From NCBI RefSeq assembly GCF_002119765.1, contig NZ_CP021112.1, forward strand, positions 3,342,501 through 3,406,500: DNA of 64,000 bases, in the 5' to 3' direction. This document shows, piece after piece, positions 2,123 to 6,864 of the stretch. The notes below the pieces were generated by a model, which saw nothing but the letters and a program-made list of their open reading frames with translations, had not been told where the DNA came from and did no database searches. The position numbers and the translations under genes are program-made. Origin of the DNA: Pseudorhodoplanes sinuspersici (GTDB taxonomy: Bacteria; Pseudomonadota; Alphaproteobacteria; Rhizobiales; Xanthobacteraceae). Numbering within the stretch: the stretch's first letter is position 1; every line of letters begins with the position of its first letter.

Positions 2123-2620
2123 TCATGACGATCTTCCCGCGCGCGCCACAGCAACCGCTTCCACCGCATCGACGATGGCGTGATAGCCGGTGCAGCGGCA
2201 GTAATTGCCGGAAATATGTTCGCGGATGTCGTCGCGGCTTGGCACTTTGCCGCCATTTTTCGTTTGTGAAAGCAATTCCTGCGCTGTCAGCAGCATGCCG
2301 GGCGTGCAGAAGCCGCATTGCAGCGCGTTGCGCCTCTCGAACGCATCCTGCAGATCGGCGATCTCGCCGGTGTCCGACACGCCTTCGATCGTCTCCACAA
2401 TGGCGCCGTCGCATTGCACGGCCAGCATCAGGCAGCCGCGCACGACCTCGCCATTCACGCGCACGGTACAGGCGCCGCAGACGCCGTGTTCGCAGCCGAC
2501 ATGACTGCCGGTCAGCGTCAGGTCATCGCGCAGGAAATCGACCAGCGACTTGCGCCCCTCGACATGGCCGTCGATGCGCTCTCCATTGACGGTGAGGGTG
2601 ATGTCGTAATGATGCGTCAT
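2123..2620 (-). CDS. Molybdenum hydroxylase small subunit, 2Fe-2S protein (CoxS/XdhA-type)
   Basis: A 165-residue protein with both iron-sulfur domains of the family. The plant-type ferredoxin cluster ligands are in CEHGVCGAC plus a downstream Cys (VVRGCLML). The second cluster ligands are in QCGFCTPGM and NYCRCTGY. It passes electrons from the molybdenum centre of the large subunit to the FAD of the medium subunit. The ATG at 2620 overlaps the stop of the FAD subunit gene (ATGA, 2617-2620), showing translational coupling. The C-terminal residues VARAGRSS are not distinctive. Length and motif spacing are those of intact CoxS-like subunits. Confidence 0.95.
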   Translation of the reverse strand: MTHHYDITLTVNGERIDGHVEGRKSLVDFLRDDLTLTGSHVGCEHGVCGACTVRVNGEVVRGCLMLAVQCDGAIVETIEGVSDTGEIADLQDAFERRNALQCGFCTPGMLLTAQELLSQTKNGGKVPSRDDIREHISGNYCRCTGYHAIVDAVEAVAVARAGRSS

Positions 2621-3465
2621 GCGCGCGCTCCGCTCATTTGCGCGGCAACACGGCGCAGCAGCACGCCAGCGAGATGTTTCTTCACGGCGCCGGTTTCCTG
2701 GATGTCGTCGGAGGGATCGAGATCTGTGGCGAGCGCTTTGACCGCTTCGTCGAGATTGCCGGAGGCCAATGCCGCTTCCGCGGCTTTTGCGCGAACAGGT
2801 GTCAGCCCCACGCCGAAATAGGCGAGCCGCACATCCTTCAGCGACGCACCGTCCGCGCGCGCCGAGGCGGCGAGCCCGACGATGGCGTAATCGCCGTGCC
2901 GGCGCGACAGTTCGGCAAAGCCGTAACGCATGTCCGGTGTTGCAGCCGGCAGGCGGATCGCCGTCAGCATGTCGTTTGGGCCGATCGCGGTTTCGTACAG
3001 CCCCTGGAAAAAGTCGTCCGCCCCCACAACGCGTTTGCCGCCGGGGCCTGCAATCTCGGCCTCGCCGTTCAGCGCCAGGAAGCAGGCCGGCAATTCGGCG
3101 GCCGGATCGGCGAATGCGACGGAGCCGCCGATGGTGCCGCGGTTGCGGATGGCGGGGTGAGCGATATGCGGCATCGCCATCGCGATCAGCGGCGCGTGTT
3201 GGGCGATGGTATCGGACCCCATCACCGCGGCATGCCGCGCCAAGGCGCCGATGTCGACCATGCCGTCTTTCACGGCGATGGTATCGAGACCGGCAATGCC
3301 ATTGAGATCGATCAGCACGCTCGGCGCCGACAGCCGCATATTGAGCGTTGCCATCAGGCTCTGCCCACCGGCCAGCAACTTGGCGCCATCGCCATGCTTG
3401 CCCAACAACTTGACCGCGTCCTCGACGGAACGCGCCTTCGCATACGCAAACGGCGCCGGTTTCAC
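2617..3465 (-). CDS. Molybdenum hydroxylase medium subunit, FAD-binding (CoxM-type)
   Basis: A 282-residue FAD_binding_5 / CO dehydrogenase flavoprotein family subunit. The two FAD motifs are visible: AGGQSLMATLNMRL near residue 35 and RNRGTIGGSVAFADPAAELP near residue 105. I chose the GTG at 3465 because GGGAGGA sits five bases upstream and the protein then begins VKPAPFAYAKARSVEDAV, the usual start of the family; a longer reading frame upstream has no such support. The order FAD, FeS, Mo subunit matches the coxMSL arrangement. It follows the ROK-type gene by 64 bp on the same strand, so one long transcript is possible. Confidence 0.93.
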   Translation of the reverse strand: MKPAPFAYAKARSVEDAVKLLGKHGDGAKLLAGGQSLMATLNMRLSAPSVLIDLNGIAGLDTIAVKDGMVDIGALARHAAVMGSDTIAQHAPLIAMAMPHIAHPAIRNRGTIGGSVAFADPAAELPACFLALNGEAEIAGPGGKRVVGADDFFQGLYETAIGPNDMLTAIRLPAATPDMRYGFAELSRRHGDYAIVGLAASARADGASLKDVRLAYFGVGLTPVRAKAAEAALASGNLDEAVKALATDLDPSDDIQETGAVKKHLAGVLLRRVAAQMSGARA

Positions 3466-3529
3466 GCATCCTCCCAAGATTTTGTTTTTTCTTATTCTGG
3501 CTGGGAAAAGGCGCGCGTCAACTACGGTG

Positions 3530-4594
3530 TCATTCCGAATGCCGGTTGGTGAACCGCGCATTGCCGAGGCCGGTGCCGATGGTCAGCACGCCCCAGTGAT
3601 CGACGTCCTGCATGAACGGCACTTCGCTCAGGCCCTGCACGACCGCGTCGTTGTGCAGCACGATGGCGGTATCGTCGTCGCCGATCTTCGGAATCGCCTC
3701 ATGCAGCCGCAACGGCAGATTGAAACGGCTCGATTCCCAGTTGCCGCCCGGCAGGTTCTGACCGCCCCGGTCGATCGAGCCATCAGCCTCGATCCGGCCG
3801 GGACAGCCGATACCGATGAAAGGGGCGAGCTGGACCTTCTCCTTCTGCGCCTTCGCGATCAAACGCTTCAGCATGCCGGCGAGACTGTCCACGGCATCCT
3901 CTCGCTTGATGTCGTTCTCGTCGGCATGGCGCCAGAGTTCGTATTTCCACACCGCGGCCTTCGACAGGTCGCTCTTCTTCTTGATGTTCAGATCGACAAT
4001 GCCGGCGCGGATATTCGAGCCGCCGATATCCACGCCGAGGATGGCATCATGCGCCTTGAACATCCAGCCAGGAGCCAGATGCGCCGCGCCGAGAAGGCCG
4101 GCTTCATCCGGATCGTTGCGGATCGGGACCACGTCCACCTTGATCTTGTCGGCTTTCAGGATCACCGAGGACCGCCCAATTACCAGTTCGCCGATGCGGC
4201 TGTTGCGAAAGCCGCCGCCGACCACGATCCGTTCGGTCTTGGCCCAGGCTTTCAGCTTCATGAATCTGCGGATGACGAGCGCGAGTTCCTGCGAGAAATC
4301 CTCGATCGCGCCTTGCAGCACGCCGGCGGCTTCCGCATCGCCCTTGCTCAGCAATTCGTCGAGCTGCTTCTTGCTCAGTTTCTCGGTCGCAATGTCGCCA
4401 AACGGATCGTCGCCGCTTTTGCGCAACGCCTTGCGCCAGTTGTCGATCAGGTCGCCGAACGCGCCCTTGCTGGCGCGATCGCCGATGAAACCTTCGTCGT
4501 CCTTGATTTCGACATTGTAGCTGTCGACCTCGACGGAGGGCAGTCGCGCCGCGCCATGCGCCGCCACGGCGGCCAGTGCCTTTGGTTCTGCCAT
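3530..4594 (-). CDS. ROK-type (ASKHA fold) protein with motifs in circularly permuted order
   Basis: A 354-residue protein. The first half holds what is normally the C-terminal half of ROK proteins: IGDRASKGAFGDLIDNW (about residue 36), ERIVVGGGFRNSRIGE (about residue 121) and DPDEAGLLGAAHLAP (about residue 160). The second half then starts with the phosphate-binding motif AILGVDIGGSNIRAGIVD and continues through FIGIGCPGRI, LHNDAVVQG and LTIGTGLGNARFTNR at the extreme end. Standard ROK sugar kinases and repressors run in the opposite order. No CxCGxxGC zinc motif and no helix-turn-helix are seen. Start at ATG 4594 has GGAGGG upstream. It may be a kinase or a ligand-binding protein; substrate unknown. 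Its place next to the Mo hydroxylase may be incidental. Confidence 0.8.
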   Translation of the reverse strand: MAEPKALAAVAAHGAARLPSVEVDSYNVEIKDDEGFIGDRASKGAFGDLIDNWRKALRKSGDDPFGDIATEKLSKKQLDELLSKGDAEAAGVLQGAIEDFSQELALVIRRFMKLKAWAKTERIVVGGGFRNSRIGELVIGRSSVILKADKIKVDVVPIRNDPDEAGLLGAAHLAPGWMFKAHDAILGVDIGGSNIRAGIVDLNIKKKSDLSKAAVWKYELWRHADENDIKREDAVDSLAGMLKRLIAKAQKEKVQLAPFIGIGCPGRIEADGSIDRGGQNLPGGNWESSRFNLPLRLHEAIPKIGDDDTAIVLHNDAVVQGLSEVPFMQDVDHWGVLTIGTGLGNARFTNRHSE

Positions 4595-4669
4595 CGATCT
4601 ACCCTCCAACGCGGACTAACGCGAAAGGGCGGGAAAGTTTCCGCTTGCAGGGAGTGGGATTGTATCCGT

Positions 4670-4762
4670 TCGTCCCCGCGAAAGCGGGGACCCAGACTCT
4701 GGATTCCCGCTGGAGCCTGTCATCGGGCCGCGCTTTGTGCGGACCCGTTGGCGGGAATGAGC
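4670..4762. repeat. Palindromic repeat element, family B
   Basis: GTCCCCGC-GAAA-GCGGGGAC (4672-4691) is followed by ATTCCCGC (4703-4710) pairing with GCGGGAAT (4751-4758) around an inner CGGGCCGC/GCGGACCCG hairpin. The same unit lies in the opposite orientation at 7763-7828, sharing the GCGGGAATCC ... CTGGGTCCCCG core. The element fills most of the 177-bp gap between the hydroxyacid dehydrogenase stop and the ROK-type gene start; both genes run on the minus strand. Confidence 0.85.
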
Positions 4763-4771
4763 GGCTAGAAG

Positions 4772-5677
4772 TTAGAGTTTCAATCCCTTCACAATATCGA
4801 TCGCACGCCGCAGCAACGTTTCCGATGCCTCCACCGTGCGGAACGCCGCATGCGCGGAAAGCGTCACATTCTCCATCCGGTTCAGCGGGTGATCGGGCTT
4901 CAGCGGCTCGGCATGATAGACGTCGAGCCCGGCATGGCCGATATGACCGGAGCGCAAGGCCGCCAGAATCGCCTCTTCGTCGACCAGCGCGCCGCGTGCG
5001 GTATTGACCAGGATCGCGCCCGGCTTCATGCGGGCGATGCGGTCGGCATTGAGGAAATTCCGCGTCTCGTCGTTCAACACGAGGTTGAGCGACACGACAT
5101 CGGATTGCGCCAGCAAGTCGTCGATCCCGACCAGCGGCACTGGCGCATCGGCATGTTTGGTGCGGTTATAGGCGACGACATTCATGCCGATGCCTTTGGC
5201 GATGCGCGCGGTCTCCGCGCCGATGCCGCCTAGTCCGATGATGCCGAGCGTCTTGCCGAGAAGCTGCATGCCCTCCAGCGGCTTCCAGGTGCCGGCGCGG
5301 AGCGTGCGGTCCATTTTCGCAATGTCGCGCGCGCAGGCGAACATCAGCGCGATCGTGTGCTCGGCGACGGCGGTATCGCCGTAACCCTTGATGATGTGGA
5401 CGGTGACGCCAAGCTCCTTCAACTCGGCGATATTCATGTAGCTCGCAGCGCCGGTGCCGAGGAACACGATGTGCTTCAGCGATTTGCACTGTGCGATGTA
5501 TTCCGTCGGCATGTAGGAATGATCGTCGAGCGCGACGTCATAGCCGTCGAGCAGCTTCGGCAGATCCTCGACCTTGTAAGGCGTGGTATTGACCGTGACC
5601 TGTGGATCGCCGGCGCCATGGACTCTGTGCCAGACCGGTTCAAGCTGATGATTGCAGTCGATGAAGATGGATTTCAT
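4772..5677 (-). CDS. D-2-hydroxyacid dehydrogenase (NAD-dependent, phosphoglycerate dehydrogenase-like)
   Basis: A 301-residue enzyme of the D-isomer-specific 2-hydroxyacid dehydrogenase family. The Rossmann motif GIIGLGGIGAETA is at about residue 142, and the catalytic triad of the family is present: Arg in NTARGALVDE, Glu in YHAEPLKPDHP and His in LSAHAAF. It reduces a 2-keto acid with NAD(P)H or the reverse, in the cytoplasm. There is no ACT regulatory domain, so it is not a classical SerA. The ATG at 5677 overlaps the stop codon of the upstream MFS transporter gene (ATGA), suggesting that the transporter brings in the acid this enzyme acts on. The exact substrate is not readable. Confidence 0.9.
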   Translation of the reverse strand: MKSIFIDCNHQLEPVWHRVHGAGDPQVTVNTTPYKVEDLPKLLDGYDVALDDHSYMPTEYIAQCKSLKHIVFLGTGAASYMNIAELKELGVTVHIIKGYGDTAVAEHTIALMFACARDIAKMDRTLRAGTWKPLEGMQLLGKTLGIIGLGGIGAETARIAKGIGMNVVAYNRTKHADAPVPLVGIDDLLAQSDVVSLNLVLNDETRNFLNADRIARMKPGAILVNTARGALVDEEAILAALRSGHIGHAGLDVYHAEPLKPDHPLNRMENVTLSAHAAFRTVEASETLLRRAIDIVKGLKL

Positions 5678-6864
5678 GGTCTCGTTTTGGCGTGTTTCAT
5701 CGCCTGCCGCAACAGCAGGGATATCGTCAGACCTGCAATCGTCACGCCAACGAACAGCATCGGCGCCCGCACCCAGCCGAAATGCTGGACGATGAAGGCC
5801 ATCACTGCAGGACCTGTCAGATTGCCGAGATTGGTGGCCTGATTGACGAGCCCCAGCACGATAGCGAGCAGCGCCGAACTCGCCGCAAAGCGCGGCGCGG
5901 CGGCAAAGATCGATGCCGGGATGACGCCGGTCACGGCGAGGCTCGCCGACGCCATCACCGCAATGACCGCGACCGGCAGCCCTTCGGAGAAAACGCCGAA
6001 ACTGGCGAGGCCGACGAAACTGAAGCCGAAGGCGGTAATGCCCCACAGCGGCGCGCCGAAACGGACCAGCGCGCCGGCGAACATGTTGCCGACGGCATTG
6101 GCGGCGACCGTCGCTGCGGTGATGGCGCCGGCGGTGGAGATCGACAGGCCCATGCGGTCCACCAGCAATGTCGGGAGCAAACCGGCCATTGCCGCGTATT
6201 GAAAGGTGTAGATGCCGAATGCGAGCGCCAGCAGGATCGGGCCCGGTGCGCCGAGCACCTGTTTGATATTCGGCAGCACGGCCCGACCCGGATTGGCGGG
6301 CGGTGCTTCTTCGTGCAGCGGAAGGAATGCGACGAGCGCGGCGTAGACCAGCACCACCACGCCATTGACGATCCACAGCGTTTGCCAGCCATAGGCGACG
6401 AGATGCGGCCCGGCCACCATCATGATCACCGAGCCGATCGGCATATAGGCGCCAAACACCGCCAGTACCGTCTCGCGGTCTCTTGGTGCGGTGACGGTGC
6501 GCAGGAGGCGCGGCAGCGCCAGCACGGCAGCGAGAAACCCGCAGCCTTCGACCACCCGCGTCGCGATCAGAAATCCGCCATTCGTCGCCAATGCGCCGGC
6601 CAGGCTGCCAAGCCCGGCCGCCACCAGTCCGGCGATCAAGGTGCGCTTGGCGCTGAACAGCGACGCGACGATGCCGGACGGCAGTCCGGCCGCTGCGCCG
6701 AGCGCTCCATAGGCACCCAGGACCCAGGACGCCACGACCAGCGACAGCGACAATTCACGCTGCAGTACCGGGACTGCGATCGCGGCCTTTCCAATTTGCA
6801 GCGCGACCACAACGCCCGCGATGAGAAGGGCGGCGACCGCGCCCCAGCGTGTCGGTACTTGCAT
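5674..6864 (-). CDS. Major facilitator superfamily transporter
   Basis: A 396-residue, almost wholly hydrophobic protein with about twelve predicted membrane spans, consistent with MFS (CynX/NimT-like or organic anion type by general look). The loop between helices 2 and 3, VASLFSAKRTLIAG, has a weak version of the usual MFS loop, and a hydrophilic central loop (PLHEEAPPANPGRAVLPNIK, near residue 205) divides the two halves. It overlaps the start of the D-2-hydroxyacid dehydrogenase gene by four bases, so the two are translationally coupled. The upstream gap to the divergent hydrolase gene is only 55 bp. The substrate is inferred, not seen, to be a carboxylate. Confidence 0.88.
   Translation of the reverse strand: MQVPTRWGAVAALLIAGVVVALQIGKAAIAVPVLQRELSLSLVVASWVLGAYGALGAAAGLPSGIVASLFSAKRTLIAGLVAAGLGSLAGALATNGGFLIATRVVEGCGFLAAVLALPRLLRTVTAPRDRETVLAVFGAYMPIGSVIMMVAGPHLVAYGWQTLWIVNGVVVLVYAALVAFLPLHEEAPPANPGRAVLPNIKQVLGAPGPILLALAFGIYTFQYAAMAGLLPTLLVDRMGLSISTAGAITAATVAANAVGNMFAGALVRFGAPLWGITAFGFSFVGLASFGVFSEGLPVAVIAVMASASLAVTGVIPASIFAAAPRFAASSALLAIVLGLVNQATNLGNLTGPAVMAFIVQHFGWVRAPMLFVGVTIAGLTISLLLRQAMKHAKTRP

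Follow-up and report, generated by a model that had tools for sequence, protein, structure and literature searches.

A circularly permuted ROK-fold protein, probably a stress-induced kinase, in Pseudorhodoplanes sinuspersici

Introduction

The hallmarks of ROK proteins, as set out in a portion of PMC5458393, are a DxGxT motif (the N-terminal nucleotide-binding site), a catalytic aspartate, an ExGH motif and a zinc motif of the form CxCGxxGCx(E/D). According to the same portion, some accepted ROK kinases are also without the zinc motif. In NagK, the equivalent aspartate is the catalytic base, and the small domain is composed of the N-terminal part of the chain plus a C-terminal helix, as described in a section of PMC10031466. 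Promoters controlled by EcfG in Rhizobium etli follow the pattern GGAAC-N16-CGTT, and the abstract of that paper describes EcfG as exclusive to alphaproteobacteria (PMC3892343).

A permuted ROK protein was not recognised in the literature that joins permutation with ROK, ASKHA, glucokinase or sugar kinase, among the matches listed, nor in the passages seen of PMC2213659 and PMC1079889. The string ‘permut’ is absent from the main text of a 2025 review (PMC12696579) and from that of PMC10031466. Literature on the stress response together with ROK does not contain the term ‘ROK family’ among the matches listed.

The gene and its order of motifs

The DNA analysed here, referred to as the window, is a stretch of 64,000 nucleotides from the P. 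sinuspersici genome, which consists of one contig of 5.97 Mb. On the minus strand at 3530–4594 there is one unbroken open reading frame of 354 aa without internal stop; its ATG is at 4594 and its stop codon ends at 3530. Motif counts given below refer to all 106 loci matched by tblastn at E <= 1e-20, which represent 77 unique sequences and were taken without any choice based on motifs. The features of the gene are as follows.

3530..4594, minus strand: permuted ROK-like gene, 354 aa, intact (open reading frame; Pfam ROK at E 4.1e-8 in two stretches)
4602..4607, minus strand: Shine-Dalgarno-like GGAGGG, 7 nt 5′ of the ATG (sequence inspection)
4070..4558, minus strand: residues 13–175, corresponding to the C-terminal half of ordinary ROKs and ending in DPDEAGLLGAAHLAP (hhalign, NanK model)
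4211..4219, minus strand: GGG, residues 126–128 (invariant in 77/77 unique homologs)
4046..4069, minus strand: residues 176–183, the joint of the old C-terminus to the old N-terminus (maximum of the cut-point scan before residue 184)
3542..4045, minus strand: residues 184–351, corresponding to the N-terminal half of ordinary ROKs (Pfam ROK and first native hhalign match)
4013..4030, minus strand: DIGGSN, residues 189–194, phosphate-1 motif of the DxGxT type (D[IV]GG[ST]N in 76/77)
3797..3814, minus strand: GIGCPG motif, residues 261–266 (G[IVM].CPG in 76/77)
3641..3655, minus strand: HNDAV, residues 314–318, with the presumed catalytic aspartate D316 (HND in 77/77)
3560..3577, minus strand: GTGLGN, phosphate-2 motif near the new C-terminus (76/77 unique homologs)

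Further motif positions in the protein are GGGF at residues 126–129, DPDEAGLLGAAHLAP at 161–175 and LTIGTGLGN at 337–345. From family knowledge of ROK and ASKHA proteins, we take the GGG at 126–128 to be the adenosine-side glycines. In the joint region, P175 is found in 76 and W177 in 71 of the 77 unique homologs. A preliminary description of this DNA held that the segments which usually close a ROK protein come first and the phosphate motifs after, and all the motifs that it named are indeed found in that order. It erred in placing the end of the chain right behind GTGLG; nine residues follow GTGLGN.

The flanking genes on the minus strand (2123–3561 and 4772–6376) presumably encode medium and small subunits of a molybdenum hydroxylase (CO/xanthine dehydrogenase type) and a D-2-hydroxyacid dehydrogenase. 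The neighbours of the permuted gene in the window recur in few relatives only. A palindrome, CCCCGC-GAAA-GCGGGGA, is located at 4673–4690 in the gap that separates the permuted gene from its upstream neighbour (17 bp, both strands); when the window sequence is shuffled, 11 of 100 shuffles give as many matches. Similar palindromes were seen by eye upstream of two homologs (L016 and L017), which suggests a dispersed intergenic repeat.

Profile evidence for a permuted order

The Pfam ROK profile matches the native protein in two stretches at E = 4.1e-8, with 33.5 bits against a curated cut-off of 22.9, and the stronger stretch places residues 186–350 on profile positions 2–141. When residues 1–176 are moved behind the rest, the two become one collinear stretch of 33.7 bits that covers residues 10–353 on positions 2–292 of 294. 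In a genome-wide search of reading frames, where single stretches are scored, the best ROK stretch of the permuted gene has 21 bits, below the cut-off of 22.9. TIGR00744 gives a similar picture, with two stretches on the native protein (29.3 bits) and one on the rotated protein (residues 10–352 on 1–308 of 318, 26.7 bits), both values lying far under the model cut-off of 260. The NanK model aligns weakly with the native protein, residues 105–174 falling on 219–286 of 288 (E 0.016). Residues 1–176 alone gave no ROK match in Pfam, where FGGY_C at E 0.27 was the only hit, and no match in NCBIfam. Native Pfam scans of five other members of the family found two ROK stretches in L012, L020, L027 and L028 and one in L024.

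Alignment of profiles with hhalign used a family alignment of 64 members (57 unique) and 27 ordinary ROKs from other genomes; both sets were chosen by motif patterns and are consequently pre-selected for order, and the ROK-like locus L029 was excluded from the 27. In native order, family columns 175–334 match ROK positions 2–137 (score 100.9, 134 columns) and columns 58–168 match positions 197–300 of 317 (score 63.3, 103 columns); a third match, with a score of 13.5, is negligible. The family was then rotated at each 20th residue, with finer steps around the joint. The best single alignment is obtained with a cut before residue 184, where 286 columns are aligned (positions 2–300 of 317) with a score of 142.4, and the score drops on either side. 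As the native matches sum to 164, which is more than 142, the scan speaks for collinearity over the profile and not for total similarity. The stretch behind GTGLG, which is the ExGH/zinc region of ordinary ROKs, aligns poorly.

The preliminary description named a structural alignment in normal order as one finding that would refute it; in the cut-point scan every native-order alignment scores lower than the rotated one. The sequence profiles bear out the suggestion of the preliminary description that the ROK fold is permuted. The linear order that characterizes ROK members, N-terminal half followed by C-terminal half, is not that of this family. A circular permutation of the ROK fold in the window protein can be considered secure, with very little doubt left.

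Ordinary ROKs in the pool score at most 34 bits with the family HMM, and none of those pooled stands out as a closest relative that is not permuted. One ROK-like locus of ordinary order (L029, genome G050) has, after GLGTGVGH, a segment DGHASKLHVNVDERD similar to the new N-terminal block found in the permuted proteins. Judged by this segment, L029 is possibly a non-permuted cousin.

Predicted structure and comparison with the PDB

An AlphaFold2 model of the window protein, made with 12 homologs, has a pLDDT of 67.6, which is too weak for structural claims. With the L012 homolog, which begins at family residue 13, as the first row, the pLDDT is 79.1 and the pTM 0.80, and this model was used for Foldseek (best 50 of 63 matches at E <= 0.001). 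Among the matches listed, ROK proteins align over approximately half of the chain (2yhy with 168 columns and an rmsd of 2.9, 2qm1 with 188 and 5nck with 169 columns), and the longest alignments, of 427–452 columns, are to human hexokinases I and II. These hexokinases consist of two copies in tandem. The end of copy one and the start of copy two together have the permuted order, and a long match is therefore expected for a permuted single domain. The Foldseek comparison of the L012-homolog model, which gives no aligned ranges, appears to agree with the swap and is consistent but indirect evidence.

A phmmer search of the PDB with the window protein found nothing below E 0.036, and profile searches gave weak matches, mainly to ROK kinases (best E 7e-4); no PDB entry in these sequence and profile searches covers the permuted family well. 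Only two matches at E <= 0.001 were found in a viral library, both of them Hsp70-type proteins of plant viruses.

Conservation across genomes

All 106 of the 106 loci show a single contiguous end-to-end match to the protein (E <= 1e-20), and the order is thereby conserved in the homologs. The nearest relatives in named records, 81% identical, are from MAGs labelled Pseudorhodoplanes, and identity within the permuted family goes down to 44%. In the genome_contigs set, all 11 confirmed loci match over nearly the whole length, and the shortest of these matches covers residues 13–353. Strong matches are present in 54 of 100 genomes at the family level; 53 are near full length, and that of G776 covers just 49–352. 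At the class level there are 16 genomes of 385, among which G351 and G122 have stop codons within the match, and two more with weak ROK-like matches only. At the phylum level the number is 22 of 398, five of them outside the class, with nine more that are weak. Within the class of G408, the match is in G408 alone among 229 genomes, and three are weak. The surveys share genomes, so that these counts overlap and are not additive.

In 204 of the 208 plasmid records with a match, 80% of the query or more is covered; Rhizobium accounts for 112 records and Sinorhizobium for 79. Among the matches listed, the plasmid annotations read ‘ROK family protein’, ‘hypothetical protein’, once ‘glucokinase’, or are missing. 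A ROK regulator encoded on pSymA is named in a passage of PMC6200981, and its identity with the permuted gene is conceivable at most. Short extra fragments of the gene were observed beside full copies (G820:C3:7685–7875, G747:C286 and G280:C38), one of them with a stop; they are either decaying duplicates or contig ends.

A conserved neighbour was sought over 42 loci (L134 being without a recognised ROK open reading frame). The largest cluster comprises 10 loci at scattered positions, and no neighbour is family-wide. At five annotated Rhizobium/Shinella plasmid loci (L084, L087, L090, L092 and L144), otsB, which encodes trehalose-phosphatase, is divergent beside the permuted gene, and here the EcfG-type motif has 8–9 of 9 letters towards the ROK gene and 7 or fewer towards otsB. 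A trehalose function is not inferred from this adjacency. A passage of PMC3188799 reports induction of an R. etli otsB by (p)ppGpp, which may differ from the otsB beside the permuted gene. In L092 and L144, the permuted gene is also close to plasmid rep genes.

The source genome of the window has two PF02685 glucokinases, and the permuted gene is the sole match to the ROK profile at E <= 0.001. A role for the permuted protein as the main glucokinase was considered and rejected on account of these two genes: with them present the protein is not needed as a glucokinase, and supply of glucose 6-phosphate is unlikely to be its main role.

Motifs kept and lost, and the new N-terminal block

The catalytic aspartate of ROK proteins is strictly conserved, HND being found in 77/77 unique homologs. 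A DxGxT-type motif, with T or S as the last letter, is present in 76/77; it is located at residue 189 and not at the N-terminus. ExGH was found in 0/77 of the unique permuted homologs as against 27/28 ordinary ROKs, and the CxCGxxGCx(E/D) zinc motif in 0/77 as against 25/28 (in the E form). The absence of these two motifs, as well as the upstream promoter motif described below, adds to the observations of the preliminary description.

The new chain ends fall between GTGLGN and the segment expected to hold ExGH and the zinc motif. In place of these there is a conserved block, HGxxxLPxVxVDxYN ... GFxGDxAS, in which H13, F36 and G38 are invariant over the 77 sequences and D39, G14 and N27 are found in 76, 74 and 72, respectively; hhalign puts this N-terminal block at the ExGH/zinc segment with low confidence. 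Without ExGH, a hexose site of the ordinary kind is less likely, and from the new block we infer a pocket that may have been rebuilt with a new specificity. Given the make-up of the NagK small domain, the permutation should render the small lobe one piece, i.e. DPDEAGLLGAAHLAP, a short joint and ILGVDIGG.

A candidate promoter of the EcfG type

One further feature lies upstream of the gene in the window.

4618..4642, minus strand: candidate EcfG-type promoter GGAAA-N16-CGTT (8/9 letters of GGAAC-N16/17-CGTT)

The search for this motif in the family began after the upstream region of the window had been noticed. The 200 bases before residue 13, which include the first codons, were scored for 76 distinct family upstream sequences. 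At least 8 of 9 letters are found in 57/76 and all 9 in 17/76, and the remaining 19 score 7 or less. Of 733 windows drawn at random from these loci, 32 (4.4%) reach at least 8/9 and five (0.7%) are perfect. Shuffled upstream sequences give a mean of 2.25/76 at 8/9 or better, the opposite strand gives 11/76 with none perfect, and six scrambled motifs give 0–5/76 each, one being perfect once. After thinning of similar upstream sequences, 47/64 are still at 8/9 or better. The score of the window itself, 8/9, is matched by 4.4% of random windows. Over the whole genome, perfect EcfG patterns are outnumbered by those of the reversed control, 116 (52 + 64) vs 166 (79 + 87).

The five members outside the class (L045–L049) have scores of 5–7 only. 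As EcfG is described as exclusive to alphaproteobacteria, these low scores fit the expectation if EcfG is absent there. From the translations read, PhyR-NepR-EcfG is encoded in the source genome of the window at L152 5425–6225 (+), 5068–5340 (−) and 4523–5071 (−); a histidine kinase gene adjoins ecfG, nepR and phyR, and around this locus there are eight perfect motif sites in approximately 8 kb.

Both marks of the EcfG regulon were thus found, a promoter-type motif 5′ of the family genes and PhyR-NepR-EcfG in the genome that carries the window. These motif counts point to the permuted family as a likely member of the general stress regulon; for the window copy, membership appears somewhat less certain than for the family.

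Alternative explanations

It can be asked whether the gene is a rearrangement or an assembly artefact of one strain, and the preliminary description had named two rearranged, strain-specific fragments as a case that would undo its reading. Nothing was found in favour of such an artefact. Homologs in many genomes keep the same order, which is the case in 54/100 family genomes, 16/385 class genomes, 11 contigs and 204/208 plasmid records, and 42 positions are invariant over the 77 unique sequences; a strain artefact is refuted. A second possibility is that the halves of ASKHA proteins are so alike that the swap has been mis-assigned, which would make the protein an MreB- or Hsp70-like ASKHA ATPase with two domains in ordinary order. 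Whole-chain sequential alignments do appear in Foldseek, among the matches listed, over 300–304 columns with MreB and 328–346 columns with single-copy human glucokinase. These have TM values of about 0.3 and an rmsd of 12–14, however, whereas a ROK kinase fits about half of the chain over 168 columns at an rmsd of 2.9; moreover, by profile the two halves match their respective ROK halves, and rotation leads to one near full-length match. Ordinary order is strongly disfavoured and has a very slight chance of being correct. It may also be asked whether two half genes from different ROK-like sources were joined, instead of duplication and trimming of one ancestor. The halves are too diverged to be placed in one ROK subfamily, which would suit such a fusion, and no duplicated intermediate came up in searches that were aimed at other questions, but they are complementary and non-overlapping, with ROK 2–137 and 197–300 matched and 138–196 unaligned natively, as is the case for one permuted domain, and a fusion seems rather improbable.

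The alternative that deserves more weight accepts the permuted fold and supposes that kinase activity was lost, the protein serving as a sugar or nucleotide sensor, or as a pseudo-kinase scaffold that binds ATP or a ligand in stress. The lack of ExGH and the zinc motif in 77/77 unique homologs, the stress-type promoter upstream and the want of a family-wide conserved neighbour can all be read in this way. On the other hand, the catalytic aspartate is kept in 77/77 and the phosphate motifs in 76/77 each, which would be unusual in a dead kinase, and Pfam scans show no DNA-binding domain, unlike ROK repressors. In addition, NanK of F. nucleatum is without the zinc site, yet its major activity features are described as conserved in the part of PMC5458393 that treats it; that protein keeps ExGH. 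Loss of activity is accordingly considered unlikely, though less so than the half-gene fusion, and a catalytically competent kinase is the likely case.

Proposed mechanism and significance

In the reading preferred here, the ROK fold has undergone circular permutation in nature, and the resulting protein acts as a Mg-ATP kinase whose transcription is linked to EcfG. Taken as a whole, this reading has a good probability of being correct. The closing segment of an ordinary ROK is tied by a short linker (residues ~176–183) to the opening segment. The chain would adopt the two-lobed architecture that is usual for ASKHA enzymes; its small lobe would be continuous, and its large lobe would be open where ordinary ROKs bear ExGH and zinc. 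The protein would bind Mg-ATP, with Asp316 serving in the phosphorylation of a small substrate that is probably similar to a sugar, and the pocket for this substrate would have been rebuilt from the block at the new N-terminus, HGxxxLPxVxVDxYN...GFxGDxAS. Transcription would start as part of the general stress response governed by PhyR-NepR-EcfG. With transcription of this type, the function is most likely the handling of carbohydrates or metabolites in times of stress and not the feeding of glycolysis. It is tentatively suggested, at somewhat less than even chances, that the cut at the sugar-binding/zinc segment may have made a new pocket, and with it a widespread stress-induced kinase with a substrate novel for ROK proteins.

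Enzymes that were circularly permuted in nature are well suited to test the mutual dependence of fold, chain order and function. In this family the permuted order is strictly maintained and two motifs of the parent family, one of them sugar-binding, are lost, so that it may show how permutation can re-cut an active site. Members are common among soil and nodule bacteria, including Rhizobium, Sinorhizobium and Bradyrhizobium, and the family, mostly labelled ‘ROK family protein’, looks like an unrecognised part of the general stress response.

Comparison with known systems

ROK sugar kinases (PF00480; TIGR00744, NagK/NanK) share with the permuted family a profile that extends over both halves after rotation, as well as the DxGxT-type phosphate-1 motif, the ND of the catalytic aspartate, GTGxG and GGG. 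The permuted family differs from them by its swapped order and in having neither ExGH nor the zinc motif. ROK repressors of the NagC/Mlc type have the ROK-type domain in common with it, but the permuted protein is without an N-terminal DNA-binding domain in Pfam scans, and its order is permuted. Glk-type glucokinases (PF02685) are of the same ASKHA fold class; they are encoded by separate genes in this genome, and the window protein has no match to PF02685. The likeness to the EcfG/RpoE2 general stress regulon of alphaproteobacteria lies in the promoter motif, to which the upstream sequences of the permuted family give a match. Since three defining features, i.e. order, ExGH and the zinc motif, are not those of ROK kinases, the protein is filed as a permuted, derived relative of these kinases and not as an ordinary member.
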